A stretch of DNA of 64,000 nucleotides from Clavelina lepadiformis (Eukaryota > Chordata > Ascidiacea > Aplousobranchia > Clavelinidae): contig NC_135247.1 of assembly GCF_947623445.1 (NCBI RefSeq), positions 498,501 through 562,500 on the forward strand, read 5' to 3'. Position numbers and translations under genes: made by a program. Below are positions 23,660-64,000 of this stretch, one piece after another. Position 1 is the stretch's first letter, and every line of letters starts with the position of its first letter. Under the pieces are notes generated by a model, which was not told the DNA's origin, searched no databases, and was given only the letters and a program-made list of their open reading frames with translations.

Positions 23660-26550
23660 ATGCGCTGTGACGTGATTTGCAAGATTGTCATTCTAAAGCA
23701 CGTGCTAGCTACGGTGGTGTTGGAAGTCTGGTTCGTCCAACTCAGCATCCAAGCTCCAGTGAGATGCGCAGAGGGAAAAAGTCACAAAAAGTGAGATAAG
23801 ATGTTTGTTTCTTCATAAATCATCCTGGTTATTGCAACCAATCAGCATCGAGTTTACTTTGCAAAACAACCTTTGAATCATAACCTGCTGATTTATATTT
23901 GCTTGAGTTAAACTTGAGCAATCATTTATAAGTTACGACGACGATCAAATACTCCGAAGCTGCGATGTTTGTATTGGCTCACTTCACCATGGGCGTCGTC
24001 TCTCATTTAAAACAATCACCATAGTTTCGTCATAAAATGTCATATAATTAATACATCTGGTTGCTGTGGTGGAAACCAACTCATATTATCTTCTTCAGTT
24101 GCTCTGTGAAATGGCGAGACATGAGCATGTGGTGCGACGACTCCAACCTGGTTGCCGTGCCCCACCCAATGGACAAGCACACGAGCAAGCTCATCAAGTC
24201 CCAGGCTCCACCTAGCAGCGCAAAGATCATGCATTTCAACAGCAGTTGTCTGATGTCTATAGACCCAGGTAAAACCTATCAAGTGAAACTGGAGCATTTT
24301 TTGCGAAAGTATATTTTTTCCGTTTTTTGTTTTCCTTCCGTGTTAGAAAGTTTTGCTTCGCATCACGGGCTTCCAATATGTGGTTTATTACGTCGTTAAC
24401 ATGCGTGGGCGTCTACCACGTGACAAGTCTATTAAACAATTCTCGAATCTTGGCAAACAAACTTAACTACTTCATGTGATAAGTGCATTGCGCCATGAAG
24501 TAAACTCTTCGATGTAAACATCTGTCTCGACATAGCTTGTACACAGGGAGCTTGTAAAGCATCAGTAACTTATCTTGAAAAACTTATCAATGATATTTTG
24601 ATGACTTCGCAGCAACCATGAGCCACTACTCAAAGCTAAGGACGTTCAACGCGGACAACAACGACCTTGCGACCATCGACGCGAACACGTTCAAGAAATG
24701 CAGGAGACTTGGTGAGGTCGTTTTGTCCCGGAACAAAATCTCGACTCTGGACAACGATGCGTTCGCAGGTTGGTTGATGTCAGATCGGACTCTGTGATCA
24801 AACAAAAGGTTTCTACAAATTTCAAATTTCCCGCCCTTTTCTGTTCAGGCTTAGCGGATCTCCGAGTCCTCAATTTAAGTGGAAACTCACTGACTGAGAT
24901 TAATGAGGACGTTTTTGCTCCTCTGAGTCACCTTGAGGTTCTGGATCTTTCCAACAACAACATCGCGGAGTTGAGCGAAAAAGCTTTTCGCAAATTGACT
25001 CTGCTCCAGACTTTGATCTTATCAGGCAATCAGCTGACCGAGGTTACTTCAAGGCATTTCATCAACCTCAACGAATTGCAGTGAGTTATTGCATTGTGAC
25101 GACACAGATCAACTTAAATAAACAAAGCAACTAAACTTTAGTTAACTGTGATTGGGTGAATGTTTAATTGTTGTGTACTCAGTTAGTTCCGCGCAAATCG
25201 CTGACCATGGGCGATAATACGCGCGATACAAGGTACGCGCCTCATATGCGCCCCAAGAACCTTAAAGTCTGAAACAACCGGGATGAAAAGCGATTGATGA
25301 GTTTATATTTTCACAGAACTTTAGACTTGAGCGGAAATTCTATCTCGCTGCTGGATGAAGACTTTTTAGTGCCTTTGGAAAAACTCGAGTCCATAAATTT
25401 GAGTCACAATAATCTCTCCTGTCTAGATAAAGTCTTCTTTAAGGATAACACGTAAGGGGACGTGACGTGTGTTTTACACCAACCACTTACGATGACGTCA
25501 CGAGTTGACTCCCTTGTTTTTGCGCAGTCACTTGACTCGGATCCAGTTGAACGACAACCAGCTCAAGCAACCGAAGGAAGATTGGTTTCGAGATCTGATC
25601 AAACGCCAGCCCCGACCTGGAAAGAATGCAGTTTCGCTTTCGGGGAATCCCTGGCTGTGCGATTGCAACAGCCACAAATACGAGGTGAGATTGACGTCGC
25701 TTTACCTGTTTGTTGTCAACGAATTATGATTATGACATCATTTCAGGACTTCCTTAATGAGCAAATTGACGACGATGAATGGGAGGAAATGCTCGACATC
25801 TGGTGCTCGCCTCCTGACGCGAAAGAAATAAAAAAAATGTCCTCCCTCATCGGGAAGTTCGCTGCGTGTCCGGCAGAGTCCAGCAAAGAGTGCCCCGGAC
25901 AAATAAACAAAACTCCTCCCGATGAAGACTCCAGCGATCCGATAGTCAAAGATGTTGGCGCCGAGGATGACCTAGCTCCGTCTACCCGTCCCTACGTCAC
26001 CACCACATCCACGAAATCGTCAAGCACAGCAACTTTATCGACAACAACTCCGCAAACTCCAGAGGATCAACCGCTGTTCCAGGGCCCGCCAACAGGGGGA
26101 CTTTCCCTGAATAACGTTGTGATCATTTCTGGAGGAATAGTCGTCTGTGTTTTCTGCATCCTGTTAACCGGAGGCTACGTCACTCGCAGATCTAAAGGTA
26201 AAGAAAGAAAAAGAAACAGTTCCGGAAATGACGATAACGACAGTGGATTTGGGGACCAACCAGGAGCAAGATCTTCTCTGACGTCACAAACGGGAACAGA
26301 TTCGGCGCGAAGTTCATCTATGTCATCACAAACTACGCTCATCGACCATACCCGCCCCAAATTGCCGTGGGGGAGATCGCGGATGGACAGCGGGACATTC
26401 AGCTACTCCTCCGAAGAGCAGCCCCCCAACAATATGGACGCGATATCGGAGGAAAGTTTCGGCCCCTCCGAGGGCAAGCATCACGTCCACTGCGAGTTCC
26501 AGGACTCGTCATACTGCCAGCTGCCATTCAAAAGCGTCACTTCGGTGTGA
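23660..26550 (+). CDS. LRR-1: single-pass leucine-rich repeat membrane receptor-like protein
   Basis: Seven exons, 594 aa: 23660-23790, 24099-24268, 24613-24768, 24849-25080, 25317-25451, 25528-25684, 25747-26550. Exon 1 was found by phase: it ends in phase 2 at AA|GTGAGA and encodes a hydrophobic leader followed by RCAEG, as in the paralogues. It is the least certain part. The cap exon has CSVKWRDMSMWCDDS and NSSC and is 18 nt longer than in the copies with a 152-nt cap exon. LRRs follow to about residue 310, with typical LxxLxLSxNxL units (LRVLNLSGNSLTEI). The C-cap is NPWLCDC, then CSPP and CP. A Thr/Ser stalk (TTTSTKSSS) precedes the membrane helix at about 449-472. The tail of about 120 aa is Ser-rich, with DSGFGD, SYSSEE and SYCQL. 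The nearest poly(A) signal is 27244-27249. It is the most divergent member of the cluster; function unknown. Confidence 0.9.
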
Positions 26551-32182: not shown

Positions 32183-33826
32183 CACTGGACAACAATTTAC
32201 AACTTATTTTTTATTCCTCGCTCATTTCAAGTTTACCTAGACTAATTTTGCAATGCTGAATCCAAATCTGGTCTTAGATTTTTTCTAACACGTCACGTTT
32301 TTGAGATATGATATATGCTCACGACAACCCATAACTGTGATTTTGGCTAATTTTGGCTGAGCGGAACAAAACATTACATGTAATCAACCCAGTAATTTCT
32401 ATTGAAAATAACAGCATTATCATACTGCACAATTTAACACAACCCAGGATAATTAAATCAGACAAAAATAACATTATATTCCCTCAAAAGTGCTTTATAC
32501 ACTTGCTCTTTCGAGTATGTTCAGTGTCAGTTTCACGCTGAAGAAACCAGCAGTAGTCCCCCATCATGTTTGGGTTAAATCGACTTCTATACCGCGATTC
32601 CATCACAGAGATGTCTTGGTGAAATCTTTCCCCATGCTCGTCGCTCACATCACCCAGGTTTGGCGGGAAAAATTCCAAGTGTGAATGAAGAAAATGCAGT
32701 TTAACCGACATTCTGCAGCCCATTTCGCGGTATGATTCCAGCAAATTGTCCACTAGTTCCGAGTAATTTTCTGCCCTGTACTTCCCAAGAAAATTTTGTA
32801 CAATCTGTACAAATGCATTCCAGGCTTTTAATTCAATTGAATTAAGCTTGGATGGAAATACTGGGTCACGGATCAAATCACGTATTTGGGGGCCAACAAA
32901 TATTCCAGCTCTCAGTTTAGCATCACTTAGTATTGCACCAAATTTTTCTTTTATATGCAGGAATCCATCTCCATTGAAATCCATTGCCTTCACAAATTGT
33001 TTGATCAGGCCCAGTTTAATGTGAAGTGGTGGCAAGTACACTTTGCTCGGATCAATTAGGGGTTGGCACTTAACATTATATCTTCCAACAATGTAGTCCG
33101 TTCTCATTGGCCATTCAGTTGTGTCATAGTGGTTTGCATCGTCTCGACTGTCCCACAAACAGAGAAAGTACATATGCTTGGTGTAACCCAACTGCAATCT
33201 GAGAAAAAGTGACACAACTTTAAGGTCTCCACATATGTTCCAGTTATAAGCCCGGTAGTTAATGACCCGTAGGATGGTTTCCATAGACTCGTACGTCTCC
33301 TTCAAATCGACAGCATGAGCAATAGGGACAGAAGGCTTTTCATTCCCATTGTGCAGTAGGACAGCTTTCAAACTAGCTTTGCTAGAATCAATGAACAGTC
33401 TCCACTCAGTGCTGATGTGTTGGTGGCCAAGCTCATACATGAGTGAATCAACATCAGTGCAAAAACACACAGAGTCTTCGATTTTACCCCCCCTCTATAG
33501 TCATGGCCAAGAACATTCAAGAATGCATTAATTGTGAAAAGATAGAACATTGCATTTACAAAATAATGTCAATATTAATCTTACATAACATGCATTGTGA
33601 CATAATATGACCAACAATTCGCTGGGAAAGAAAATTGCACAATACCTTGTACTGTAGAACCTTATAATATAGTGCCAATCAATGCAAAATCCGAATTTCG
33701 TGAATTTTCATATCTTGAAAACCTGACGTGATAGACCAATTCTGATTTCAGATTTGGAATCAGCGTCCCAAAGTTAGTCTAGGCAGTTTATTTTCATTTG
33801 AGGAATAATTTTGCTGTTGTCCAGTG
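32183..33826 (-). mobile_element. DNA transposon with long inverted repeats and TTA target duplication
   Basis: A 1,644-bp element bounded by CACTGGACAACA at 32183 and its complement ending at 33826. Flanking TTA is at 32180-32182 and 33827-33829. The inverted repeats extend inward imperfectly to about 32321 and 33709, sharing words such as CCTAGACTAA, TTCCTC, TCCAAATCTG and GAGATATGA or close variants. They enclose a 328-codon transposase-like frame on the - strand. A 3-bp TWA target is known for PIF/Harbinger-type and Zator elements, but the encoded protein did not let me assign a superfamily. Confidence 0.82.
32484..33470 (-). CDS. Transposase-like protein of the TTA element
   Basis: An uninterrupted 328-codon frame ending in KCIKHF. 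The annotated first codon is GTG (33468-33470); the frame stays open upstream to an AG at about 33500, so an earlier start or exon is likely and the N-terminus is uncertain. The C-terminal block (SDEHGERFHQDI, then NPNMMGDYCWFL) and WRLFIDSSKASLKAVLLHNG are, as I recall, shared with many uncharacterised, high-copy proteins in cnidarian and insect genomes. Acidic residues D28 (FIDSS), D82 (CGDLK) and the DEHGE group near 277-281 are spaced plausibly for an RNase H-fold DD(E) core; that is inference. The intact frame implies limited decay since insertion. Confidence 0.75.
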   Translation of the reverse strand: MCFCTDVDSLMYELGHQHISTEWRLFIDSSKASLKAVLLHNGNEKPSVPIAHAVDLKETYESMETILRVINYRAYNWNICGDLKVVSLFLRLQLGYTKHMYFLCLWDSRDDANHYDTTEWPMRTDYIVGRYNVKCQPLIDPSKVYLPPLHIKLGLIKQFVKAMDFNGDGFLHIKEKFGAILSDAKLRAGIFVGPQIRDLIRDPVFPSKLNSIELKAWNAFVQIVQNFLGKYRAENYSELVDNLLESYREMGCRMSVKLHFLHSHLEFFPPNLGDVSDEHGERFHQDISVMESRYRSRFNPNMMGDYCWFLQRETDTEHTRKSKCIKHF

Positions 33827-34791: not shown

Positions 34792-37400
34792 ATGGTGAAT
34801 GTGAGACTTTTTTGCGTGCTCTTTTTGCTCGTTGTGTGTTTACGTCACTCCACTTCTAACCCAATCAAAATCGTTTCGAAGCATTGCAACCATCGACCCA
34901 CGAGGACAGTGTATGTACAAAAACTTACAACTTTCATCTTTTTATTTAATTCTGAACTATCTACAATAAGCTTCAAATAAACGTTGTTTTCATCGACTTT
35001 TATAAATGAAAAATAAAACTTTCCACGGATGGTAAATTTTGCAACATTCGTTATTTTTATTTTTGTGTCATGAAAAATTTATAATGGAGTTCTATAACTG
35101 GCGTCTTTAGATGTAAGCTGAACCTGACCATGATGGCGTTATGGTGTGACCAGAGCAACTTTACCACAATCCCCCAACCAGAGAAAATTTTTGCACGAGC
35201 TCCTCCAGAGAAATCTTATTCTCTCTATCTCAACCAGAGCTGCGTCGATCATTTGGACAAAGGTAAATGTCAGATTGACGAGAAAATTTCTTGAAACAAA
35301 ATCTTCACAAATCCACAAACTATATTTAGAATTTGCCCATACAGAAAGTAGCTTGGAATTTTTTACGAGGCTTAAACTCGGCTAAACTAAAGTGCCACTA
35401 AGCGCAGAATGACGTATCTAAAATAACGGTGCGCTACTTTAATAATAGACATCATAGTGAAGTATATATACCTCGAGGAACTTGTGCTGAGCGAAAATTA
35501 CATCGAGGAACTTCCTAAAGAAGTCTTCATAACATTGGACAGACTCGAAAGCTTGCAACTCTCTAAGAACAAAATCAAACGTTTTGACGATTCAACACTC
35601 ACAGGTTAGCAAAAGCGTTTAATCGATATCTAATTGTTGTGTCATAAATGTAACTCTATAATAAATATGCAATTTGTCATGTTCGCCAGCAAAGGACGGC
35701 ATTTATGAACAAAAATTACTATTTTCCGTTCAAGGTCTGACCAAATTGCGGCGGCTTCACATTGACCACAATCTTCTTACCACCCTCTCTGATGACGTTT
35801 TCCATGACGTCACAAACCTGCAAATATTGAAGCTCAACAACAACCGGTTGTCCGCAATCTCCCCGCACACTTTCGCCGCCCTCACAAATCTGCTCGAGTT
35901 AGATTTGAGCGGGAACCATCTGGGCAGGTTCGATTCGTGGCAGATTAGCGGAGTGTCCAAGCTGAGGTAAGCCGAAGTTTTTGGAAGATTTTTTAGCATT
36001 TTGCGAATTTTATTAATTATAATTTGTCGAAAATAACAAGTCTGAGTTTTCATGCAGTGTCTTGAATCTGCACAACAACCAGCTCGAGTACTTTGGGGCG
36101 ACTCTGGCCAGCGTACCCCACTTGGAGGAGATCGATTTGAGCAACAACACACTTAAGTGCCTGGACGACTCCTTGTTCCGATTTAAATACAAGTAAGTTG
36201 GCCGGAAATGAAGCGCTCAAATCCCGCCAACATTGACTAGGATTCTTGATCAAATTTTACCTTGTCGCTCTGACAGGAAACTTCTCTCGCTTCTGCGCTT
36301 GAACGGGAATCAACTGGAAACCCCGAAACCTGATTGGTTCCGTGGACTCAAAGCAGACGATGACAGGCTGGATGACGTCGCCTCGCTGACGTCAGGCAAC
36401 GAATGGGTGTGCAATTGTGACGTCAAGCCATACTTGGTAAGTTTATGTTTGTGATGTTGTACGAAGTCAATTCATAAGCAAAGAGAAATCATTCAGATGT
36501 TTGTTGTAGATTTTCCTGCAAAATGAACTTCGCTCTGAACCCGAGCTCGCTTCCATCTTAAACGTCCAATGTAGCGCCCCCGCGCGGTTGAAAGGTCGAA
36601 TGTTAATGGAGTTGTCCGATAGTGACCTTTCACCCAACGGTACTTGCCCCTACATACAAAAATATCCCGAGTGCCCGAAAAAGCCGTCCCAGCAACCCCC
36701 GCCCCGGCGAACTATGGCAACCACAAGTCCCCCGCCAACCCCATCTCCTCACAATGACGTAGGTAATGACGTAGGTGATGACGAGAGTGACGGCACGATC
36801 GAAACGCTCAAATACTTCGTCAAGGAGCATTTAACTGAAACCATCTTCATCAGCATCGTAGCGGTTGCTTTGATCGTCAGCATAGCAGCGGTTTGCTGCA
36901 GGATGAAGACGAACAAACGGGTCGAGAGACCGGATCGAGACTCCTCGATTAAGCGTTTGAGTGAGAGGACCGCCAGCACAACCCTCTCAGACGACAACTT
37001 GAACCAGGCCAGCTCACGCGATGACGTCATCACCCCTGGCAGCGTGTGCAAGAGATGCAGCGGGAGTTTGTATTTGGATGAGCATCATCCGAGGATGATA
37101 CCTGACGGGTCCTCGAATTTTCATCAAGGCTCGTTTGGAGACGGAGCGTCCAACCGGAACTCCGTAGATTCAACGATTTCTCCGCACGAAACATTCCCCA
37201 AAAGTCCCAAACATTGTGTTACGCCTCCGCCCAACAACCAACCCCACAGAAGCACTGCCAGCCAATCAAATTTGTGCAACGATTATGAGAGCATAAACCC
37301 GCAGGAGATGACGTCACCGCTCACGACAACATTTTTACCCCAGGGAAGTGACGTTGAAAGAACGCCAAACGCATTGTGTTCAACGGAAACCACGTCATGA
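34792..37400 (+). CDS. LRR-2: single-pass leucine-rich repeat membrane receptor-like protein
   Basis: Seven exons, 611 aa: 34792-34910, 35111-35262, 35458-35604, 35735-35966, 36058-36192, 36277-36436, 36510-37400. The signal peptide is LFCVLFLLVVCL. The cap has CKLNLTMMALWCDQS, APPEKSYSLYLNQSC. LRRs run to about residue 300 (LQILKLNNNRLSAI, LLELDLSGNHLGRF). The C-cap is NEWVCNC, then CSAPARLKG and CP. The stalk is Pro/Thr-rich and includes an in-frame 12-bp tandem repeat encoding NDVG (about 36754-36777). The membrane helix is at about 426-448. The tail of about 163 aa is rich in Ser, Asn and Pro, with CKRCSG and NDYESI. Its cap is closest to that of LRR-5, although two other copies lie between them. 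Ligand and role unknown. Confidence 0.94.
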
Positions 37401-42308: not shown

Positions 42309-44399
42309 ATGAAACATTCAGTTTTCGCGCTCGCTATTGTCATCATCTTCACCATCATCATACTTATCGAGGTTTCAGCGATTAAAGATGGAGAAAAATG
42401 CACAGCATCAGATCCCAGAATCATATACGAAGGGTCAGCGCATGCTTTTGTCTTCTGTGAATTGTCGTAAAGTTCTCTCTGAGTCTCTAATCATGAAATA
42501 GGATAAACTTTTCATTCTTTCAGCTGCGCACTTGACTACCGGGATATGACGTTGTGGTGTGACCTCACAAACCTCACTCAGCTTCCTCGGCCAGAGGAGA
42601 TCAAAGCACAAGCTCCTCCAAGCAAATCTGCATCGCTTTTTATGAACGACAGCTGCGTTGATCTCATAAATCCAGGTTGGAAAATTTTCTTTTATCGTAA
42701 TTTAAAAGTTTTGTCGATGATTTGGATGGTGACGTCATACTTTGCAGATGTGCTCGGTCTGTACAATCGATTGAAAATGATCAGTTTTTCAAAAAATCGA
42801 ATCAGTCATTTGGTCAACGGAACATTCGCGGAACAAACAACGTTAAAAGTCCTTGATTTGTCGAACAACATCATTTCAAAGATTAACAAAAACGCCTTTC
42901 AAGGTACCAAAGCTCATAGATCAGTTTACAATAAAAAAAATTGCAAATTATCCGTTGTTTTATGACCCCTTGTATAAATCAAGCAGCTGCAAAACATGCA
43001 TATTGGCTATAAGATTAGTTCCAACGATCACCAACATAACACTGCTTTATGGCTGCAGGAGCCATTGCACTGAAAATCCTCGACCTTTCTCATAACAACC
43101 TGTCCTCCCTGCCAACTGAAGCTTTAGCCGCTCTGCGCAATTTACAGGAACTCAACCTCGCTTCCAACAAACTGAGGACAATTGATGGCGGATGGTTTGG
43201 CCACGTCACAAGTTTAAAAGTCGTCAGTGTCGCCTATAACAAGATATCATCTTGGATGACGTCACAGCAAACTTCAAGGGAGAATGTTCCAGCCCAAAAT
43301 CAATCACCACGAATCCAATATACCCAGCATATCTCCAAGCTTGAGTGAGTATCACAGTGGAGTTGATGCGTGTTGCAATTTAAACGCAGAAGCTTCTGAT
43401 TTTTGCAGGAAATTGTCGTTACGAGGCAACGCTTTGAAGCAGCTGCCTCTTCGTGCGTTCGCTGAAAGTCAACATTTGACCTCGATTGACCTCGGTGGGA
43501 ATCGCATTAGGAAGTTACATCAGAGCATATTCAAAGACCTCTGGTGAGCGCACACTGGCTAGTAAGTGTCGAAAACAAGGTTCTTGACCACACATGAGTT
43601 GCATGGTGACGTTTTCGAATCCAAATCAAACACGCATCGTCAAAGTAAACATTTTGATTATTCCAATACAATTTGCAGTTTTCTTCATGAAGTTGTTTTA
43701 AACGACAACCGCCTCTCAATGGCTTATCGTGATTGGTTCATTAACGTCATACGTAACAATGCAGCATACTCATACCCTCCAGTTACGTCATCCGTGATGT
43801 CATACAATCGATGGATTTGTGATTGCAGAATGTACGATTATTGGGTAAGGAAACTTTGTTTTTGCTAAATAATCTTAGGTATAATCCTAAATTCACAGAG
43901 ATCAAAACAGTCGATATAAAATGCGTCATGTGCTTTGCTGCAGAAATTTCTTCACGAGTCGCGTGACAAGATTGTTTACGAAACAATGGCTATCGACCTG
44001 GTTTGCAGCTTCCCGTTGAAGCACTCAGGCAGAAATCTCACAAGTCTGAGAGAGGAGGACATCAGGTCTACGGGTGACTGTATCCTCCATGAAGAGAATG
44101 AAGAAGACAAGTCATCTACATCAATGTCTTCGACGCACAATTGTTCTAGGTATTGGTCAAAGCACACACCACTACTTGAGCATTCCACCACGAGCAACGA
44201 CGCATCACACAGAGACACGCAATCACTTTATGTGATCATGAATTTCACATTTGTTGTTGTTATCTTGTGTTTGCTTGTGATGGTAACTCTGGTTCGTTGC
44301 ATGATGCGTTCTGAGATGGCAAGCACCAAAGAGCAGTATGCGTGCAAGCATTCACAGTTAAACAACCACATCGATGAAATAAAATTTAAGGAAATATAG
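42309..44399 (+). CDS. LRR-3: short-tailed leucine-rich repeat membrane protein
   Basis: Seven exons, 491 aa: 42309-42433, 42524-42675, 42748-42903, 43059-43344, 43409-43543, 43679-43844, 43944-44399. The leader is very hydrophobic (LAIVIIFTIIILIEVSA). The exon 1 donor GTCAGC is weak, but phase and length (125 nt) match LRR-6. The cap is CALDYRDMTLWCDLTNLTQL, NDSC, nearly the same as in LRR-7. Exon 4 is 286 nt: it has lost recognisable LRR residues in its last third, which is Gln/Ser-rich (about residues 213-235). The C-cap is NRWICDC, then VCSFP. The stalk is short; the membrane helix is at about 436-459. The tail of about 32 aa lacks any signalling motif I know. A candidate poly(A) signal is at 44754-44759. 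Confidence 0.92.
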
Positions 44400-45220: not shown

Positions 45221-47500
45221 ATGCCACTTCATACTTCAAGAACGCTTTACCTTCTTGCTTTCATCTTTCTTATCTTGCGCTATGTGGGATCAGAAATTAG
45301 CGCCCAGCAGGAGAAATGTTCTCCGACTGACGAAAGAATCACATACGAAGGGTGAGATGTACCGCAAAGCATTTAACAATGCTTGTTGAAGTTTGATGGA
45401 CGGTGACAGAGTTCACGGGAGTGTCGATCTGGTTAATCAGAAAACATCAGTTTTGTTACATCACAAAACTCTGATTTTAATTTAGTTGCAACCAGGACCC
45501 TCGGAACAAGTATCTTTGGTGTGATCTGACGAATCTCCGTCAACTTCCACCTCCCGAAGAAATCCAATCTTTGACAGCACCTGGCGAAGTTCCTGTGATT
45601 TTTATGAACAACAGTTGCGTGGTCACTTTAAATCCAGGTGAGACAACTATCAAGTCTCGAGATTTTGTCAAACAAATTCAAATGCTACCAGTTCCTGTTC
45701 TACGCAAGGCACACTGAGCATCTACCCGAAGCTGGAAGTTCTAAGTTTCTCTGACAACTTGATCGAGAGAGTTGCAAGCGGAACTTTGTCGTCGCTTCAC
45801 AAACTCAGAATTTTTGATCTCTCCTACAACCACATCTCACAAATTGAAGTCAACGCATTTAAAGGTAATGTGTCCAAGCTCTCTATATACATGAATAAAA
45901 TCCGTGTTCTATGTTCCGCGGATAATATGTTCCGTGTAAACGCAGGCGCCGTTAAGCTGACGCGCCTAAATCTTTCCCACAACCGCTTGACGCGAGTGGA
46001 AGCCGCAGATTTTGCATCACTGGAAAGTTTAGAAGAACTTCTTCTAAATTATAACCAACTGACGAGTTTAGATTCCCAAATTTTCAGCTCCATGCCTAAG
46101 CTCAAAGTCCTTGGGATGTCGGACAATCAGCTCAAGCACTGGGCAGGCATTCCAGCGAGAGATCTCTCTTGTTTGATTGCCTTAAACCTGGCTGGGAACA
46201 AGATTTCCACTTTAAATGACACAACTTTCAACTTGCCTCAGTTGAGGTAAGTTTTTGCTACGACACCTTCTGATTCTCATGGATTAGTTCATCACGTGTA
46301 TGACGTATTTTTTAGGACGTTGTCATTAAAAGGAAACGACCTGACCTTCATTCACCATGGCGCTTTCAATAAGCTGGCAAATCTCACTGAACTGGAACTA
46401 AGTAACAACAAGCTAAAGACCATCGCACCAGATGCGTTCAAGGGACTAAAGTGAGGCTTTTCGTGCTTTCGTCTTAAACTAATCTCAGATCAAACAAAAA
46501 AATTGAAAAATATTCTTTTGATATTTCAGTGAACTCAGAACCTTATCGCTGGCTGGCAATGAACTGACTACAATCCCCAGCAGATGGGTCGAATACTTTT
46601 CACGAAATATTGCATTGAGTTGTCCAGAGCGAAACATCTTTGGAGACAATGCTTGGACTTGTGATTGCACCATAAAGAATTATTGGGTATAAATTCCTGG
46701 ATTTATTGAGTTGGTTCAATAAATAACTCTGCATTTGTTCTTAACAGACATTTCTGAAAAGTTTTGATAAAAATAAGCAAACGAAAAGAAAAGAATGTTT
46801 TGAGCTGGAATGCGCGTCTCCAGCTGCACTCACTGGAAGAGAGTTGAGTTCGCTTTCATCGGAAGAAATCTGTCCGAACGGGAAAGAACGAGTTGGTCGT
46901 CATCTTCATCATCCTCGGTCAAATTCTACCTCTTCCTCTTCATCATTTCAAACGTCTTCTTTAACGTCGACAAGTATCGCGGAACCAGCAAAAGTGAATG
47001 TTTCAAGTTCCAGAATTCCTCCTCCGAACGACACGGATGCTGAGGAGAGAACAATGGGAGAAGATGAATCAGGAACTCATCATGACAAGTTTCAGGAGAA
47101 ACAAAACCTGTTCATTGCTCAGAAAATAGGAATTACTCTAGGCGTGGTTGCGATGTTGATTATATTTTTCTCGATTACGATGCAGGTGCAGTACTTTATA
47201 AAGAATAAAGCAAAAGCGGCTGCGACCGCTCCTCCTAACAGATCAATCAATCACGACATAAACCAAGAACAGCGGCCAAATAGTGGACAAGCAATTGTTC
47301 GCTTCCAGGAAAGGGACGAAGAAATCGAAGCGAGTTACCCAGGTCAGAGCTTGAGCGATGGTTCAACTTACTTCAATGTGAACCGCACACCCATGACCAC
47401 AATTTACTTCAACCTGAACCGTACAACCAGGAGCGAGACACCGAAGATGCCGCTTTTGGTGAAAGGGGGGGAGATTTGTGGATATTTTAACATGGACTAA
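45221..47500 (+). CDS. LRR-4: leucine-rich repeat membrane protein with three YFN tail motifs
   Basis: Seven exons, 594 aa: 45221-45351, 45486-45637, 45709-45864, 45946-46246, 46316-46450, 46530-46686, 46748-47500. The signal peptide is LYLLAFIFLILRYV. The cap is CNQDPRNKYLWCDLTNLRQL, NNSC. Exon 4 is the 301-nt form, with one more LRR than the 232-nt form. LRRs include LTRLNLSHNRLTRV and LTELELSNNKLKTI. The C-cap is NAWTCDC, then ECASPAALTG and CP. A Ser-rich stalk precedes the membrane helix at about 471-492. The tail of about 100 aa has YFNV (Y552), YFNL (Y564) and YFNM (Y590). All three fit Y-x-N, the Grb2 SH2 docking consensus; the first two lie in a 36-bp tandem repeat. Phosphotyrosine signalling is inferred. 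A poly(A) signal is at 47975-47980. Confidence 0.94.
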
Positions 47501-50095: not shown

Positions 50096-53000
50096 ATGCA
50101 CGTTCAAAGGGATTTGTGTTTGTGTTACGGATTGCTACTGCTGACGTCACTTCCGTGCATATACATGAAGCAAATGTGCAAAAGCACATCAACGAACACA
50201 AGGTAAGACGTGAAATTATAGATTAAAAATTATTATCATTTAAGTGTTGTCGTTGCAAAGTAAGATGCAACAATTGCGAAGCAGATTGTAAAACGTTTTC
50301 TGTACACGACGACTGTAGATGCTTCCAAGATACACGCCTCCACCTCATGTGTCTTGACACCAATTTTACATCGATCCCGGACCCAGGATCTTTGTCGGGC
50401 AGATTTCGTGCACCGCCAGAGAAATCTTATTCTCTTTACTTGAACGACAGCTGCGTGCGGAAAGTAAAAGAAGGTGAGATTTATTTTAGGATTACGTCAC
50501 AGATGCTGAAGATAGGCGAGGGGAAACCCGTGACACCGAAAGTTACCTTTTGTTAACGATGAAAGTTTACGGGAGAAATGTAACCAAGTTGGTAGCTAAA
50601 GCACCAAAAGTGGTTTCACTGGCTATTTCATTACTTCCTTAAACTCTATAATTTACCGGTTGAAGTCTTTAAGATGTGTCAAAACGTAATGCTGATGCCG
50701 CAACGCTAGAGCTAGCAGCAAATAATCACCGAAGTAAAACGTTTCATATTTTGCTTGTAGATGACCTCGCCAAATACACGCATCTTACCACCCTCGTGTT
50801 GAAAGGAAACCAAATCCGAAAGTTGGAAAGAAATTCCTTCGCAAGTCAGAAACATCTTCAAAAGTTGGATCTTTCCCAAAATCTCATTAAAAGTATTAAA
50901 GACGGAAGTTTTCAAGGTAAGATGACCCCCTTGTCTAGCATGTCACTAAGCAGTTGAAAACGCTTTATCTCACCATTTCGACTCTGGTTCGAGTTTGCAT
51001 TGAATGCGCGAGTTCACTTTATAGCGAATTCTGCTTCAAACGACCTTTTATATTGATTTTGTTCAATTATTAGCTTTTCATTTCTCAAGTAGCAGCATTT
51101 CCTGTAATTTAAGGAACATTTTTAGACTGATCATTTGTTAGGTTGACCTTTTTTCATTAAGAATAGACACTTTTGCTAATAACCAGAAACAAGTTTTCAA
51201 TATTTATTTTTATTTTTTTATTTTTTTACCGCACTTAACAATCGGTCACTGCCATGAAAGCTTTAACGTATTCGGGTTTTTGCTTCTTCGCCTTCAAATG
51301 TTCAAGTTTGGATTTGGTGAGTTCAGCCAAGTTAACATATTTCATCGTGGTTTGGCCGAAAATACCCGCTCAAACCAGGTTAAAGGTCAAGCGTCGGTTC
51401 TGCTTCGACGCCCTGCAACCAGGAAGTAATTCACATCGACGTCATGCTTAAATATTCACAAGGATGCACATCAATGCGTCTTCACTGAGCATGAGTTATT
51501 CGTCAAGCTCTCCAGGCTATTTCATGTGTCAATATTACAAATTTAAAGCTGGTTCAAGTTCTGTTTTTGTGGTTGTTTAGGCTTAGTGGACCTTACAGAA
51601 CTTCATCTCGGTCACAACAAGCTCGAAAGTATTTTCCAAGAAACGTTCAAAAATCTTGCCAATCTTACTGTGTTGAAGATGAACGAAAACTTGCTCGAGA
51701 AGCTACCTGAGAAGTTATTTGAAAATCTGGAAAAGCTGGAAGAACTTGATTTAAGTAGAAATCGGATCATTAACTTCAATAAATACCATTTCACCGGCCT
51801 TACCAATTTGAGGTATGTGACACTACCGGGAAACAAGGAAGTATAACCAGCTAATAACCTTGTGCATATATTGTAAATAAACCATTTGTGTTACAAATCA
51901 TCACAATGCTTGTCTAAGCCAAGTTGTTTCCAGTTATTTCCAGTTTCCTGTTATTTCAGACGAATTTATTTGCAACATAACCATCTGACAGCTTTTATCG
52001 ACGACTGGTCATATAAAAATCTTGTTGAAATTGATCTCAGAAATAATTCCCTTCGATGTTTGAAGAAATCTGTCTTTGACGCAACGTAAGTGGGGGGGGG
52101 GAAATAAAAGAGTCAACTTTAAAGCAGACGATACCATACATGCAGGGTGATAAAAAATTTACGTTTTCATTAAATTCTTAAAGTGCTATTTGAGAGCAAG
52201 AATGAACAAATTTTATGCGCAGTGAGCTTCAAATCATTCGCTTAAGCGGCAATTCACTGAAAGTGCCGCAAGCTAGTTGGTTTCGGAAGATGTACAAGAA
52301 CGACGGAAGACAGTACTTTGATCAGGAAAACTCCTCCATCACAGCAAACAACCCATGGCACTGTGACTGCAATATCATGTCGTATCAGGTAAGAAGCATC
52401 TGAAGAAACGTCAGCATCAAAATTTTATCAAGCCTCGAACTTCAGGTTTTGGTGCAAGCTTGTTTTCTTCTCCGGCATATCACAACAATGAATTCTGTGA
52501 TTTCTATGTTAGACCTTTCTATTGGAAGAACTGGAAAGCAACGAATTCTGGTCCATGACGCTCGACATAGAATGTCAGAGCCCTCTGTCGATGAAAGGGA
52601 AAAGATTACGAGAACTCGCAAAGGAAAATAGAAATCTTATTGGCATCGATGGATGTGACTTATCAAGAAATGTGGACAACTGCGAAGAAGACTCGACTCC
52701 TTCAAAAACTTCGCCAACATCTTTTAAAATTTTATCGCCAATGTCAACAACATTATCTTCAACAACTACCACACTCGCCACAACAACATCAACAGAAACC
52801 TTAACGAAGAATAAGCCTTTGCGTCACTGGATATCTGCCGATGATCTTCGTAGCCCTTCAGAGGCGGTCATGGATGACCTACCCCAGCCGCAGGAGGTCG
52901 AACAACCAGGAAGAGCAAACGGAGCCAATGAAGGGTGGACATTGGACAACACGATCATTGCAGCGCTGTCTGCGGTGCTACTTCTCTTCATAATTTTTTC

Positions 53001-53757
53001 CGTCTTTTCGTTTTGGCATTTCAGGAGAGTCAAAAAAAAGTTAAAAGCAAATCACCAGAACCTAGCCACAGCAAGCGTTGTTTCAACAAACACTTCCAGC
53101 AACAACGGCCACTCAAGGTGCGACTGCACGTTACAGCACAGCACAAGCATGCAAACGTTCGAGGCGTCATCGTACAATACGTTGACTGACACAGGTCGAT
53201 CAGTCACAAGCAGCAACTTCCAATCGACCCTGAACCACTCCAGCAGAGAGCGAAGACGTTCGAGGCCCCACTCATGGCCCTGCGGCGATGAAACGCAGCC
53301 AAAGGCGGTAGTGGCAAGCACTCATACCCGAGGCGACCCCGAGCAAACAATTCCAAAGCAAATATATAATTATGAAACAGCTCGCCCGGCTGTGCCAGGG
53401 TGTGCGCATATTAAAACAAACGCCCACGCACTTCAAGCACCAGCTTGGTCGGTTCCATCTAACCACACTTACTGCAGCATTTCAAACCATGGAGGTAACT
53501 GCAATGGTACCAATCCGAACCAACCTATAGTGATACCAGATCCAGTTGCCAGTCCATCTTTTCATGCGTGTGCTTGTGGAAACTTCTGGAGACATCCTGT
53601 GGTGACGTCCAACCAAACCATGCCGGTCAATTGGCATTGCCCGGGGCCAAGCCACAACACAGCCATAAACCACAGCAGATACCCGTCTCCGCCGCCTTCT
53701 TATCATACTCCTAGCGTGCCGGGAACATATGTGCCCAATGTACCTTGCACTACTTAG
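50096..53757 (+). CDS. LRR-5: long-tailed leucine-rich repeat membrane protein
   Basis: Seven exons, 728 aa: 50096-50202, 50319-50473, 50761-50916, 51581-51812, 51960-52085, 52223-52388, 52513-53757. The signal peptide is LCYGLLLLTSLPC. The cap has lost the tryptophan of the family motif (HLMCLD instead of TLWCDL) but keeps NDSC and the APPEKSYSLYLN stretch seen in LRR-2. Exon 5 is nine bases shorter than in the other copies. LRRs include LTELHLGHNKLESI and LEELDLSRNRIINF. The C-cap is NPWHCDC, then ECQSPLSMKG. A Thr-rich stalk (TTLSSTTTTLATTTST) precedes the membrane helix at about 461-483. The tail of about 245 aa is the longest in the cluster: Cys/His clusters (RCDCTLQH, HACACGNFW), tyrosines in YNTL and YCSI, and a C-terminal PPSY (WW-domain type) motif. 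A poly(A) signal is at 54087-54092. Confidence 0.94.
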
Positions 53758-55951: not shown

Positions 55952-58021
55952 ATGGTTGCCAAGGCAAATATAATAGCATTATTTTTACTTGCAACGTGGG
56001 AAATGTTGTGCTGCATAAAAATGTCGGTTCAAGGCCAAAAGTGCACTGGACATGATGGCAAGAAAATGTATGGCAGGTTTGTAACAAAGTGAATTAATCT
56101 GAGTTCGTACAGTCAAAGAACTCTCAGCAAAACTTAACATTGCTGTGTGGCTTGTTAGTGAACGGGTAAAATATAAACCCAAAAAAATAAGCCAAATCTT
56201 AGTTATTTATTGAAAATTATATAATTTCAGCTTTAAGATGTTGCAATTGTTTTAAAACAGTTGTTCATTGGACTATCGGGACATGACGTTGTGGTGTGAC
56301 CTGACCAATATGACGAGAGTGCCGCCACCAGAGAGCATAAACTCGCCCGCACCACCAAGCAAGTCTCATGTGTTGCTCATGAATGCCAGCTGTGTGGATT
56401 ACGTAGAACCGGGTAATTTTGCAATCATTTGTAGCTTTGTGAACTCAGAAAAGTGAAACTAAAGCTTCGTTATTACTTTACAGATGTTCTGGGCAAGTAT
56501 CAGCGGTTGAAAGTAATAAATCTTTCAGACAATTTCATCAAGAGCATACAAAATGGCACATTGACCAGGAAAGAAAAACTAAAGCAACTGGACCTTTCCA
56601 ACAATCAAATTGAACTTATAGATAAGCAAGGCTTTAAGGGTAAGAACCACAATAATAGCTGCAGGAAGCAACAACGACATTTTGTAGATTTCGAAATCCA
56701 ACTGTTTTTGATCTTTCCAGGAGCTCCGAGATTGATGTTGCTCAACCTGACAAACAACCAACTCACTTCAATTGATCCCGAAGTCTTCCAGGACATCCAT
56801 TGGTTGGAAAAGCTCTTCCTGGATCAGAATCATCTTGGATCTCTGGAGATGGGCTGGTTTGTTCCACTGCGCAAGCTAAAGGACCTCAGTGTAGCGAGGA
56901 ACAACATCAGCTCCATACAACCCTATAAGCATCGATTTCCTCGCTTGAAGGTCTTGAACCTGGACGGCAACCATCTGACTCTTATTGACTCATCCTACTT
57001 CAAAAATATGCCGGCACTAAAGTTAGTCTGCGTTTAAAAAGGTCAACAAGAGACTGGGGTTCAGAGAATTAATTGAGATCGCTTTTCCTTTGCAGGTTTT
57101 TGTCGTTGCAGAACAACAGACTATCACACATCGAAGAAAATGCATTTGAAGGGAAACAACTGATGACCTCGATTGACCTTAGGAACAATTTATTGGAGTC
57201 ACTGCCACGAAACCTTTTCACAGATTTATGGTATTGCTCTTAGAGACTCTATCTATGCATGTTGCTATGGTGACTTAACAAATATTGCTGTATACGTTTC
57301 AGCAAGTTACGGGAGTTGAAAATAAGCGGAAACAGGTTAACGACAATAGAACCCCAATTTGTGATCAATGTGATCCAAAACAACCCCAAACCAATGACGT
57401 CACTGCTGGCCAGTAACAACTGGAACTGCAGCTGCAACCTGTTTGAATACTGGGTACTTAATGAGTATTCTCAGTATTCTACCTTTCAAAGTGTTGTTTA
57501 AGTAAACTCACGTTTATTGACTTGCGCAGAAATTTCTTAAGGACATGAAAGAACGAGACAATATTCCTGACGTAGAATGCCTTTTTCCTCAACAACTTGC
57601 TGGCGTTAGGCTCTCGACCCTGTCGATAGAAGATTTCTGTCCTGGTACAACCGACGCAACAATGACACCCTCAACAAACACGTCTTCATCTTCAGTAGAA
57701 GGTAAATTTGATCCAATCGAAAGTTATTTGTCAGTCGACTGCAAGCCGTCCAGTTCATCTTTTGAAACTCTTCAAGTCGTCCAACATCCCGCGCTAAGGG
57801 CGGTGAGAGCGATACCGGCTCCGGAGACTTTTGAGAAATTAGATTTTCAAACGTCCACTGTGAAGTCAACTGACATCACAACCAGTGACGTGCCTTTAAC
57901 CATTATCATTGTTATCATAATTGTTACCACCACAATCGCAGCAGTGGTGATTGCTTATATATTCTACACAATCAAGTTTAGAGAAAAGAAAACACCTTCA
58001 AAGAGAACCGCTTCCATTTAG
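55952..58021 (+). CDS. LRR-6: short-tailed leucine-rich repeat membrane protein
   Basis: Seven exons, 503 aa: 55952-56076, 56261-56412, 56484-56639, 56721-57021, 57096-57230, 57303-57453, 57530-58021. The leader is ANIIALFLLATWEMLCC; the exon 1 donor GTTTGT is weak but in the conserved phase. The cap is CSLDYRDMTLWCDLTNMTRV, NASC. Exon 4 is the 301-nt form with the extra LRR (LKVLNLDGNHLTLI). The C-cap is NNWNCSC, then ECLFPQQLAG and CP. A Thr/Ser stalk leads to a very hydrophobic helix at about 463-487. The tail is only about 15 aa (basic, KFREKKTPSKR), with no signalling motif. Like LRR-3 it would need a partner to signal, if it signals at all. Confidence 0.93.
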
Positions 58022-58127: not shown

Positions 58128-58794
58128 GGCATCCAGGCCGGATAGCGACTGTCAAAACAGCGACTGTCATAATGGTGACTTCATAATAGCGACGTAATCA
58201 AGTGAGCGACATTCCAAACAGCGATTGTCTAAATACCGACCGCATTAAAACAGCGACTGTTATGATAGCGACTTAACTAGGCTTTCCATTTTTCCAAATT
58301 TTTTTGTTGTTTATCATTGCTACTACAAGGCAGAGACCTGACTCAGCGAATGAAAAGATACGTGACAATGAACACACGAATCACTGTTGTACAGCAAAAT
58401 CGAGGCCAGTATGATCTGCGGCAGTTCCTTCGAGCCCTTGCTCGCAATTTAGAAATAAACGTGTCTTGATTTTTATTGCATTTTTATTGCATTTTTATTT
58501 TATTTTATTGCTTTTTAAATCATGTGACTTCATGTGACTATGGATAGTCCAAATAAAATGTTGTTTTAAAGTCCCTTTTGGTTTCAATCTTTCACTACGC
58601 AGTATTTGCCTGTTTCTGCGTGCATACGTGTGTAGAGAGGTGTGGGGGATGGAAGTGCGTGTGCGCGTAAGCCTTGGATTTAATAAAAGAAGTGAGGTCG
58701 CTGTTGTGGCAGTCGCTGTTTTAAATGAATCGCTGTCGTGTGGTCGCTCTATTGATAGTCGCTGTTCTGACAGTCGCTATTTGGAACCCGAGCC
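58128..58794. mobile_element. Mutator-like MITE with sub-repeated inverted ends
   Basis: A 667-bp element starting about 107 bases after the LRR-6 stop. It is flanked by a perfect 9-bp duplication TTGAATATT (58119-58127 and 58795-58803), the length typical of Mutator-like elements. Both ends are arrays of a degenerate unit built on AGCGACTGTCA, in direct orientation at the left (about 58141-58270) and inverted at the right (about 58694-58783). The outer GGC/GCC matches. The middle is AT-rich with TTTTATTGCA repeats and no coding frame, so the element is non-autonomous. Confidence 0.85.
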
Positions 58795-59711
58795 TTGAAT
58801 ATTGTATACTCTGCAAAAGTTAGTAGAAGTAACAAAAACAATTGCACACTCTTTTGCTGTTGTAGCATTTTCTTTCAGGTTCATGTGCTGCTGGTCAGAA
58901 TGCGAACTTATTGTTTCACTGTAATATTTTACTACTTATCATTCCTTGTATAAATATTTTCTTTTTTGTATGATTATTTTTATTTAGACGTGTTGTTTGC
59001 ACGAGCCAATTAATAGTAATTGAGCAACTGGTAGTTGCCGTGTCGTGTTCGAAGCTGGTGACTTGTAACCTTGTTTGTGAAGCAAATAAACAAACAACAG
59101 CATCAGGCTTAACAGAACGTTGGTAGCAATGCAACCAATTTGATAAACTTTGAAAATAGAATAAAGAATAAAAAAGTTGTTGAAATCTACTTTAAAGGAT
59201 CAGAATCGAATCACACAAGTTTGTTTATTTTTGTTGACCTCAGTGGTCGACAAAGCAAAGATGACCAAGTTTTAAGCTGATAAAATCGCTTCGTCGAAAT
59301 TACTAAAAACTGTAATTATCAGTTATTCTGCAAATGAATTGTCTGGATTTTTTTTGCAAAATTCATGTTCTAAAAATATCAAAACTGTTAATAATTAATG
59401 ATATGTGAAGTTTTTAGGATTGTGCTTGCGTTGAAACTCTCAATCATTTATCAATCTAGAAATTAAGTTATTAGTATTACGTGATAATAAATTATTCCAT
59501 GGCTTAGCATTTACGACTTAGTTTGCAAAATAAACACATTTGCTTGTTTTGGAGGAATTTGTGTTAACAAAAGTTTGACTACAAAAACCAGTACATTGTA
59601 GTCAAAATCTATAACCAGAATAATTTCAAATATTGGCAGGTGATATTCTTACTTGTAAAAAAGTTGATAGTCATGAAACTAGTTTTCAAGCAACATAAAT
59701 AAATGCACTGG

Positions 59712-59759
59712 CGTGATATGAATGAAACGTGATATGAATGATACGTGATATGAATGACA
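59712..59759. repeat. 16-bp tandem repeat, three copies
   Basis: Three head-to-tail units of CGTGATATGAATGAAA with one to three changes at the last bases. Confidence 0.9.
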
Positions 59760-60090
59760 TGTTATGCTGATTCTAAAACAACAAAACTTGTGCTAGTGAC
59801 AATGGATTCTTGTAGTATGCGTTGGTCCACGTTAAAACCAGTTATTAACCAGAAAGTCGATAGCGATAAACCAAGTTAAGAGAAGCCAACAAAAGTTATC
59901 AGGAGAAATGTCAACAAATGCAGAAATGTCAACACAGTTGTTGCTGGTCGTAAACTTCAACGAAACGACAACTGACAAGATGTCTCGCTTTTTGGTGACG
60001 CGGCAAAATTGCTGCATTGATAACAATTTAGCGATAAAACCTTAACGCAAGATGAAAGCATGATGCTATTATTGCATTATGTATAATCGT

Positions 60091-60126
60091 TACATACACA
60101 TTTACATACACATTTACATACACATT
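60091..60126. repeat. 12-bp tandem repeat, three copies
   Basis: Three perfect units of TACATACACATT followed by degenerate ACATTT-type sequence to about 60170; an ordinary short-period repeat. Confidence 0.9.
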
Positions 60127-62802
60127 TACATTTACATTATACATGTACATTTACATGTGCATACATTTATACAATACTATTATTGCACGATTATTATTAT
60201 TATGCTATAGCATTATTAAGCTCTAATACTTAATTATTGGCCAGGACTGGGCTTAAATAAAGATAAGTTGACAAAAACATTTCGTCTACGTTGACAACCG
60301 AGCATTTTGCAAGGTGCCAATATAAGTTTAAATCTATAACAAGCTGTTGTTTAATAATCAGATCAAGATCAGGTTTGCGGTAATAATCATATTACGGTTT
60401 TGCAAAAACGAAATCGTAAAGCGAAGATAAATGTGAGCGTGCTGTGTGTTTGCAACAGAAAAAGAAATAAATAAATTTGGATAAAGGATAGAATTGGGTC
60501 CATTTTACTCTTTAGCGTCACCATCATCTTCAACCTTATACTATGGCATTTAGCGTGACGAAAATTGAAAAAAGATCACTCTGTGTGGGAGGAAGCAAAT
60601 ATAAAAGCCCATCTAGGACCCAAGACAGCTGATGTTGCCGACACTTTTTGGCAACGGATCCGATCGAAATATTTTCTACTAAATGGGACCATAAAGGATC
60701 TTCCAGTTTGATGCTGGCTTCCTGGTTACTTATGAACAACACGAATTTATCTGTCATGAGGATGTTTATCCAACTACTGTACTTGAAGTGGTGAAAATAC
60801 TTTTTCCAAATTAACCAAACAAGCCACTACGACTACGTTGGTATCAGTATCTGCGGTTGTTACATACCATTATGGGCAACTTGTTTGGCCAGTTGAGTTG
60901 TTTTGAAAGAAACAAAAGAGAAACGAAAAATCGTTTTAACTAAAGCAAACAGACAAAGAACAAGGATTGCGACAGGAATTCATTCAAGCTGGCTCAACCT
61001 TTGCTACCTATAAACATAACAAACGACCCATAACAAAGACGAGGAAAACCTCTATGTTTTGTCTCATGACTTTGTCTAGTTTCGGTTCCTTAAACGGTTA
61101 TTCTAAAATTAAACAAGTTTTCCTTCACTCGTGATTGCATGCTATGGTGCATCACTATGCATCACTATCACTATTGCTATGGTAAACAAGTTTCTGTAAA
61201 GTGCTTCACAGAGATCAAAATAATTGTCTCAAACTATAGCATTACACTATAGCAACTGCAGATGACGATGTTCTTGTTTGCTGCTCAGTTTATAGTCGAA
61301 TAGTAGAAGATTGTAAAAAACAACTTGATCACAAAACACTTCATGAATACGACGACGTGGCATAAAACTCGCTTTCATGTCAGGAAGTAATAAAAATTGT
61401 AAAAATCACAAAATTAAGCAGAACAGGAACAAGTCAAACGATCAACAAACACAATACAAAGATTGCTGATGAGGTTAGAAGCAACTACTTTGTACTGCGT
61501 ACACAGAAAGCGATTTATTTAGTTTGGATAGTTTTAGTTTTATGTCAATAGTTGCAGCACACAAAGACACAGCACAGCGAGAATCACGAGCACTATAAAT
61601 ACAATAATACAATACATAAGACAATACAAATACGAACACTTTACAAGCGTGATGTGAAGACGAATATGAAATTGTCAATGGTGTAGTTGATTGAATAAAT
61701 AATCTGAAGTCAAACCATATCTTATACTGAAGACATTTTCGTCATCTATATGTGGCAGTTATAGTGTTTCCACTCAGGTTATTGTGAGTTGGAACAAAAT
61801 GAGGTTTATTAAATAAATAGGATATTTCAGCTGGAAACAACAAAGGTGTCGAAAGTAACAAAACCACGAAATCTAATCCATGTACCAAAAATATGAGTCA
61901 AGTTTATCTCGCAGTTTCAAAAATGCCACCAGACTACCACACACCGGTTACAGCTTATTGCCAAAGATGAATAGGTTTGATTTTCAGCACGACCTTTATA
62001 TATATATGCTCTGCTAGGTGCTTTTTTCTCTTTATCTTCTTCATGTTTCTCTTCTATTTTCGAGCCAGACAAATTATCGACCCAAGTATTGCGCAAGTCT
62101 GTGTCTAAATGTGCCTTTGACAAATGCTGACGCGGCTCAGCGCCGTACGTTGTAAAGTCAGGGACATGGATTGTTTGTAAACAAGAAAACTACGCAACGC
62201 AGAAACTTTCCGAATATGGAACTTTAGAAGTGCAACTAACACTTTATCTGTTACGTCATAAACAGTTATTCATGACATGAAAAGGACAGAAAAAACATTT
62301 CAAAGCCTAGGCCCTAGACTGCAACAAATTAGAGCGCAATGTAAAATACGCAAAAGAACTCAGCAGCCAGTATTAAAAGCGATGGAACAAATGAAACAGC
62401 AGCTGGAGTTGGGCTTAACATATCGCTGAGCGTTGACTGTATTTACTTAGTCGATAAAAGATAGATATTATACTCAGGGAGATTAGGTTGGTGGCAATCA
62501 TACAAAATAATCGCGCGCCAACCGTTAAGATTTAAACTGTGGGTTTTGAAAGAGAAAAAGCAGAACTGAAAATACATTGGGCGAAACTCGTCTTTCGCCT
62601 GAAACGCTCCGTTAAATTTTGAAGTATTCTAATTTAAACAAGGAATACAAACAGTGATGGAACGACAAAAGCAAACCGAGCTCATATTAAATCAAACAAT
62701 GCCGCAAATTATGAAAAAACATAATTTTCTACGGAATTCTGTTCCAGCTAAAGGTTTTTATAATTTTGTTGTCGCTTCGGGATTTTTCAGCCTCAAGTTG
62801 AG

Positions 62803-64000
62803 ATGCGGCGTCTTCTCGAGTCCATGCACATTTTCATTTTTCTTCTCTTCTTCGTTGTGTGGGCCAGGGCCAGTGCTGGAGAATCGACAAAGCGAAGTCG
62901 TAAGTGCACTCCCAACGATCCAAGAATTACTTTTGAAAGGTGAGTCAATTGACACACGATACTACACCACAGACATCAAATTGAATTAAAGTCAAAGCGC
63001 GGTTTCAGGTTGCCCAGTTGACGTTTCTTTAAAAACGTTTTGTGAATTAAACGATGTTTTCAAACAAAATACTACCAGAACGTTTCACGTCATACGAGCA
63101 CATTTTAATTCGTGTCGCAATCTAACCTACCGCATTACATCATCTTCTTTTCATTCACATTCTCAAGCTTACTTTCACTTACGTGGCAATTTTTATCTCA
63201 TCGCACTTTTCGTATTTGCAGCTGCGCACTGGACTACAGAGACATGACCTTGTGGTGTGACCTCACAAACCTCACCCAGCTTCCTCGCCCTAACAAGATC
63301 AAAGCAATGGCCCCGCCGAGCAAATCCTCCTACCTCTTCATGAACGACAGTTGCGTCGCTTCCTTAGACCCAGGTGAGCTTGCAATCTTCGGCTGCTGCT
63401 CCACCAGAAAGATATTTCTGTTGATATGGCAACTAAAATTGTGCATTTAAGGAGTACTTAGGGAGTACACGCGGCTGCAATCCATAAGTTTTTCCGACAA
63501 TTTGCTCAAATTTGTTTCGGACGGAACTTTTTCTCAACATCCCAAACTGAAAGATATTGACCTTTCAATGAACAAGATCTCGTCCATTCATCCAGACGCA
63601 TTCAAAGGTCGGAAAGTAAAATGACGTTGACTATTATTGTGATGTCATAAGACACAAAAAGGTTTCCATGTTATTTTTTCATAATATTTCGTAATTACAG
63701 GATTGAAAACACTAGCGAGACTCAATCTTATGAAGAACCGGTTGACCTCGCTTGACCCGATGGTGTTTAGCAATCTCGAAAATCTTAAAGAACTCTTCCT
63801 GGATCGAAATCGCTTCCAATCGCTCGATGCAACATCCCTTCACTTCTTGAAGCGGCTTCTTCTTCTCACTCTTTCCGAGAACAAAATAAAGCGTTGGAAT
63901 AAAACTAACGGCCAATTTCGAGAAATGCAAACTTTGAACTTGAGCGGCAACAAACTTGAGGGGGTCAGCAGCGGAGATTTCAATAGAATGAGCAAACTCA
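62803..64000 (+). CDS. LRR-7: leucine-rich repeat membrane protein, 5' part only
   Basis: Four exons before the window edge: 62803-62939, 63222-63373, 63452-63607, 63701-64000 (continuing). Signal peptide MHIFIFLLFFVVWARASA, then KCTPNDPRITFER, which matches exon 1 of LRR-3 and LRR-4. The cap is CALDYRDMTLWCDLTNLTQL, NDSC, almost the same as in LRR-3. LRRs include LKDIDLSMNKISSI and LKELFLDRNRFQSL. Exon 4 already shows the extra LRR (MQTLNLSGNKLEGV) of the 301-nt form, so it should end at 64001, one base past the window. C-cap, helix and tail are not visible. The cluster therefore continues to the right. Confidence 0.92.

Follow-up and report, generated by a model that had tools for sequence, protein, structure and literature searches.

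A tandem cluster of predicted type I leucine-rich repeat receptors with a common N-cap exon in the colonial ascidian Clavelina lepadiformis

We analyzed bases 498501-562500 of chromosome 8 of Clavelina lepadiformis, a stretch of 64,000 nucleotides hereafter called the window, which carries most of a tandem cluster of eight predicted genes (g1 to g8) encoding leucine-rich repeat (LRR) receptors. Direct computation revealed the gene structure and open frames of the cluster, a constrained N-cap exon common to all copies, divergent LRR bodies, differing cytoplasmic tails and an exchange of the cap between g3 and g8. We tentatively read the cluster, with a probability of about 0.42, as an old tandem family of single-pass cell-surface recognition receptors whose members share a cap, diverge in their LRR bodies and bear modular tails, with an innate setting as the most likely one. 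This colonial ascidian belongs to the order Aplousobranchia, and its chromosome 8 measures 19.51 Mb in assembly kaClaLepa1.1, according to the available part of PMC10884593.

Gene models were predicted from open frames, splice sites and common motifs. All eight copies lie on the plus strand and cover 49 kb in total; g1 to g7 begin inside the window and g8 beyond it, while g7 crosses the window end at position 64000, its model being finished from the adjoining chromosome sequence. The features are as follows, positions past 64000 being given on the scale of the window.

23660..26550, plus strand: g1, LRR type I receptor, 594 amino acids; exons 23660-23790, 24099-24268, 24613-24768, 24849-25080, 25317-25451, 25528-25684 and 25747-26550; an open-frame near-copy lies on chromosome 9
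34792..37400, plus strand: g2, 614 amino acids; exons 34792-34910, 35111-35262, 35449-35604, 35735-35966, 36058-36192, 36277-36436 and 36510-37400
42309..44399, plus strand: g3, 491 amino acids, short tail; exons 42309-42433, 42524-42675, 42748-42903, 43059-43344, 43409-43543, 43679-43844 and 43944-44399
42524..42675, plus strand: cap exon of g3, a likely gene conversion tract shared with the g8 cap exon
45221..47500, plus strand: g4, 594 amino acids; exons 45221-45351, 45486-45637, 45709-45864, 45946-46246, 46316-46450, 46530-46686 and 46748-47500
47369..47497, plus strand: tail stretch of g4 with three YFN motifs (YFNV, YFNL, YFNM)
50096..53757, plus strand: g5, 728 amino acids, longest tail; exons 50096-50202, 50319-50473, 50761-50916, 51581-51812, 51960-52085, 52223-52388 and 52513-53757
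55952..58021, plus strand: g6, 503 amino acids, very short tail; exons 55952-56076, 56261-56412, 56484-56639, 56721-57021, 57096-57230, 57303-57453 and 57530-58021
62803..64000 (model to 65310), plus strand: g7, 593 amino acids; exons 62803-62939, 63222-63373, 63452-63607 and 63701-64001, then, past the window, 64099-64233, 64317-64470 and 64564-65310
63222..63373, plus strand: cap exon of g7, N-cap core with WCD
67487-69069, past the window, plus strand: second set of g7 exons 4-7
71061-73080, past the window, plus strand: g8, six exons in the model

None of the eight models contains an internal stop, all introns are GT-AG and the predicted proteins range from 491 to 728 amino acids; some of the predicted exon 1 donor sites are weak. 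Seven models (g1 to g7) display seven exons with intron phases 2,1,1,2,2,0, while that of g8 has six exons, retains the first five phases and lacks intron 6. An earlier sequence-only reading had described a tandem cluster of LRR membrane receptors, with seven plus-strand paralogues, the last running past the window, and one seven-exon plan with these phases; all of this is borne out, the receptors being of predicted type I and the seven window models having GT-AG introns and a terminal stop only. The exon lengths that it had listed hold for the cap exon, exon 2 (152-170 bp; 152 in six of the eight copies, 155 in g5 and 170 in g1), and for exon 5 (126-135 bp; 135 in seven copies and 126 in g5), but not for exon 3, given as 147-156 bp and found to be 156 bp in every copy. 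The cluster goes on to the right of the window with g8 and the second set of g7 exons.

A profile of the cap, run against 160 kb of chromosome 8 translated in all six frames, obtained eight matches above the inclusion threshold, all on the plus strand, the next having an E-value of at least 0.098; this places the end of the cluster at around 73 kb on the scale of the window. Genome-wide, the g3 cap matched 12 places at E up to 10, namely the eight cluster copies, one full copy on chromosome 9 and three fragments on chromosome 1. A large genome-wide family is thus unsupported by this count, which comes from one 50-residue query that a more diverged cap could escape.

Simple hydropathy indicates an N-terminal hydrophobic stretch and a strongly hydrophobic window before the tail in all eight copies and in the chromosome 9 copy. 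Between them lie 7-10 LRR-like pattern matches per copy, mostly 24 residues apart (one of the ten in g6 falls near the helix), followed by a stalk. The C-cap motif NxWxCxC closes the array in seven copies, that of g7 beyond the window end. In g8 (72330-73080), exon 6 continues into exon 7 and the C-cap cysteines are absent, which is most simply read as a deletion that also removed intron 6. The predicted layout of signal, capped LRR array, helix and cytoplasmic tail is that of type I extracellular LRR receptors, and we claim no family name beyond this. The layout had been anticipated from the letters alone: signal, LRRs, helix and tail recur in all eight copies, whereas the C-cap is found in all seven copies starting in the window but not in the eighth. 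In Pfam, only LRR families scored above their cut-offs in the eight copies, and none of the TIR, Ig, FN3 and sushi domains was listed for any of them at E up to 1. The copies therefore differ from Toll-like receptors by the TIR domain, from FLRT, AMIGO, LINGO and LRIG type receptors, which have an FN3 or Ig domain after the LRRs, by the latter domains, and from the Botryllus fester and FcoR proteins by the sushi and Ig domains.

The same layout, stalk included, is shared by cell-adhesion or guidance receptors such as the vertebrate LRRTM, FLRT, AMIGO, LINGO and SLITRK, and the copies might instead label cell types and bind partners on adjacent cells in development or budding. We regard this as unlikely, while taking it seriously: the lack of listed FN3 or Ig domains speaks against it, although LRRTM and SLITRK also lack both, and the young copies described below, which indicate a family still duplicating, speak against it too; on the other side, old open copies with saturated synonymous sites suit fixed, non-immune roles, and g1 ends in VTSV, which we take from its motif class to be a possible PDZ-binding end. 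Another role is suggested by the g3 ectodomain, whose best match among PDB sequences is IGFALS (E 1.1e-35), LRRC32 and LRRC33 being matched as well; the copies could then be ligand-holding proteins like these three. However, the matches span the LRR repeats, over which LGR4 (1.8e-34) and TLR3 (5.5e-34) score nearly as well, so that they reflect a common repeat rather than family kinship, and we hold this role to be improbable. In open-licence PubMed Central, no paper combining Clavelina and leucine-rich repeats was found, and the matches listed (titles and abstract starts) included no description of a comparable LRR receptor family. Ciona SLRP1, treated in the LRRCE paper, is a different LRR family, as far as the available part of PMC2637281 goes.

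The N-cap exon is the best conserved of exons 2-6, the range covered by the comparison, with a mean amino acid identity over 28 pairs of 0.507 versus 0.343, 0.342, 0.370 and 0.304 for exons 3 to 6. As previously noticed, it carries four cysteines, found at matching positions in the eight copies and in the chromosome 9 copy; the WCD ascribed to each cap is present in six of the seven copies g1 to g7, g5 having MCLD. No significant match to the cap exon was obtained in Pfam, NCBIfam or PDB sequences: the best PDB E-values were 0.72 and 1.1, one of the eight cap exons reached LRRNT (PF01462) at a non-significant E of 0.072 with no other family matched, and the full-length proteins gave no LRRNT entry up to an E of 1. 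The sequence-only reading had called the cap unusual and the family unrecognised; no obvious named family indeed emerges, but the cap is not wholly foreign. From a non-significant alignment with IGFALS, we tentatively read it as a diverged LRRNT in which the first repeat houses the fourth cysteine, preceded by a longer loop, with a putative disulfide pairing.

In most exon comparisons between copies, synonymous differences have reached or approach saturation, so the cluster set is old, and a recent burst of duplication is ruled out. A tree separates g1, g2, g5 and the chromosome 9 copy from g3, g4, g6, g7 and g8 (support values of 96/95 when the cap is included and 99/98 when it is left out); it resolves these two groups, not the branching order within the second. 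Against this background, g3 and g8, which lie 29 kb apart, have cap exons that are 89.5% identical, while the 40-base flanks are 53% identical. Their synonymous difference is 0.23 in the cap exon versus 0.81 (saturated) in exons 3-6, and the same codon is used at shared residues in 34/40 cases in the cap versus 27/71 in exons 3-6 (Fisher p 1.1e-6, the most extreme of 28 pairs). The likely explanation is a recent transfer of sequence confined to about one exon, as by gene conversion. The pairs coming next are g2-g3 (p 0.005) and g3-g7 (p 0.008), both before correction for 28 pairs. As a general claim, family-wide homogenisation of the cap is rejected, g3-g8 alone standing out.

Younger events were found at three places. 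The second set of g7 exons 4-7 is 94.1% identical to the first over 1692 bp, with open frames and splice sites, and no cap lies nearby by the profile over 160 kb. The ectodomain part accumulated 11 synonymous and 5 non-synonymous changes, and the stalk, helix and tail 7.5 and 23.5, respectively; the ectodomain part alone differs from a neutral copy (P 0.002-0.007, the split having been chosen after seeing the counts), which is suggestive of constraint. Because the whole cassette is not clearly different from neutral, we put forward only as a hypothesis that it provides an alternative 3' cassette spliced to g7 exons 1-3. It may also be a haplotype artefact, against which the likeness begins 3 bases before exon 4 and stops about 78 bases past the stop codon. 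On chromosome 9 (321263-332879), a full copy of g1 has open exons, with a ratio of non-synonymous to synonymous rates (dN/dS) relative to g1 of 0.54 both overall and in the LRRs, 0.17 in the cap exon and 0.84 in the helix and tail; the value of 1.26 in the C-cap relies on 2 synonymous changes only. Its intron 4 contains an insertion (322767-331494) with 699-bp direct repeats that are 99.7% alike, by which it resembles a long terminal repeat retrotransposon. On chromosome 1 (1.58-1.69 Mb), near repeated arrays, g1 is represented by three 5' fragments: two comprise exons 1-4, and the third breaks off within exon 3 and has its exon 1 interrupted by a stop; being about 96% like the chromosome 9 copy and about 91% like g1, they probably derive from the former.

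These fragments, the loss of the C-cap cysteines in g8 and the second g7 cassette, indistinguishable from neutral as a whole, would fit functionless copies whose frames are open by chance. Eight models free of internal stops over 491-728 codons, despite mostly saturated synonymous sites, make this very hard to believe.

The cytoplasmic tails also differ between the copies. Phosphorylated YxN is a motif for the SH2 domain of GRB2 and YxxM one for PI3K, while the immunoreceptor tyrosine-based inhibitory motif (ITIM) is [SIVL]xYxx[LIV] and the activating motif (ITAM) a paired YxxL/I. Three YxN are present in each of the g4 (STYFNV, TIYFNL, CGYFNM) and g8 (HIYFNI, SVYFNL, PGYFNM) tails and none in the six other cluster tails; three YxN[VILM] were reached by 1/200000 shuffles for g4 and 0/200000 for g8, figures that are descriptive since the pattern was picked after seeing the tails. 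The tails with tyrosine motifs recall LAT or CD28. Single sites consistent with an ITIM are predicted in g1 (SSYCQL), g4 (STYFNV), g5 (SSYNTL) and g8 (SVYFNL), the first being lost in the chromosome 9 copy (SSYCQP), and isolated YxxL/I-type sites occur in g1, g2 and g5. The g7 tail has three tyrosines without YxN or YxxL/I-type motifs, and the short tails of g3 (34 amino acids after the best hydropathy window) and g6 (18 amino acids) have one each.

Taken together, the variety of LRR bodies hints at a variety of ligands, the constraint on the cap at a shared partner, and the long versus short tails at signalling versus non-signalling members. Under the proposed mechanism, the solenoids of different copies would bind different ligands, while the N-cap would be kept alike through a shared partner or dimer formation. 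Tyrosines of the long tails might be phosphorylated on binding and recruit SH2 proteins, of GRB2 and PI3K type in g4 and g8, and the short-tailed g3 and g6 could act as decoys, ligands or partners. The setting would be one in which blood cells or epithelium carry out innate recognition or phagocytosis, ranked above adhesion and allorecognition purely by analogy. Several observations weigh against this proposal. Clear cap conversion concerns 1 of 28 pairs, possibly through a single event, and no sign of an arms race was seen here, the dN/dS between g1 and its chromosome 9 copy being 0.54; old copies with a constrained cap do not favour a fast-evolving repertoire. The YFN set is found in two of eight tails only, its motifs being short and their phosphorylation putative. 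Neutrality is not rejected for the second g7 cassette as a whole (P 0.05-0.29, depending on the constraint assumed on g7), and the predicted fold of the cap exon is of low confidence (mean pLDDT, the predicted local distance difference test, of 56.6).

Allorecognition for colony fusion or self-sterility, as thought for Botryllus fester and FcoR, would suit a colonial host (PMC10884593, available part) and a tandem set with long and short tails, the FcoR tails likewise bearing tyrosine motifs in the accessible text of PMC12065747. The ectodomains differ, however, being LRR here and sushi plus Ig in Botryllus, and Clavelinidae were unstudied for fusion or allorecognition as of a 2020 review (PMC7344649, available part), so that there may be no system to explain; we consider this role doubtful. 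A more elaborate version would be a small colonial-tunicate recognition locus in which the cap exon is passed between receptors by gene conversion and g7 splices to one or the other of its nearly identical sets of exons 4-7, which differ in their tails, giving one front end two outputs. Such a locus could provide Clavelinidae with their first candidate for colony recognition, but we see it as a long shot.

Elsewhere in the window, an exon-like frame at 13385-13774 (plus strand) weakly matches C-type lectins (E 0.0013, which falls short of the curated cut-off), and 14784-15428 (plus strand) matches carbonic anhydrase (E 2.5e-13). Between g1 and g2, a 336-codon open frame at 32484-33494 (minus strand), with no Pfam match at E up to 0.01, possibly comes from a mobile element. 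Grouped LRR matches with open frames of about 500-1000 codons on chromosomes 3 (24.38-24.46 Mb), 4 (21.375-21.409 Mb) and 5 (20.57-20.59 Mb) may represent further LRR receptor families arranged in clusters.

Tunicates are the sister group of vertebrates, and this compact, two-clade LRR receptor locus lends itself readily to studies of expression, binding and polymorphism. We compared it with known systems by analogy, not membership. IGFALS, LRRC15, LRRC32, LRRC33 and LRRTM2 have, by sequence, the same kind of LRR solenoid, but they match through the repeats, while the Clavelina cap exon has no significant PDB match. Variable lymphocyte receptors (VLRs) are assembled somatically from an incomplete germline gene and donor cassettes, and the complete germline copies found here argue against an assembly of this type. 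Lamprey VLRC resembles the Clavelina receptors as an LRR receptor with a long N-cap loop, which varies little in VLRC (PMC3900441, available part); VLRs diversify in lymphocytes by a gene conversion-like process, whereas the Clavelina genes are complete in the germline. The amphioxus FrLRR, likewise a chordate LRR receptor, binds bacteria and promotes phagocytosis via Grb2 (PMC10199209, accessible text), but it contains a folate-receptor domain and is predicted to be GPI-anchored, instead of having a helix and a cytoplasmic tail, YxN being present in two of the eight Clavelina tails. Botryllus fester and FcoR are also clustered tunicate surface receptors, separated from the present ones by the ectodomain differences given above; the Botryllus review reports, in its available part, that LAT and SLP-76 homologues were not found in ascidian genomes and that a Grb2 homologue is expressed (PMC12065747). 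In the tandem TLR1 and TLR6, also LRR type I receptors, gene conversion keeps one part alike while others diverge (PMC2077338, available part). There the part kept alike comprises LRR16-19, the C-cap, the helix and most of the TIR domain, a domain not listed in the Clavelina copies, whereas in Clavelina a single pair has its N-cap exon kept alike; the Clavelina cluster may thus be a further case, beside TLR1/TLR6, of gene conversion keeping one receptor module alike.

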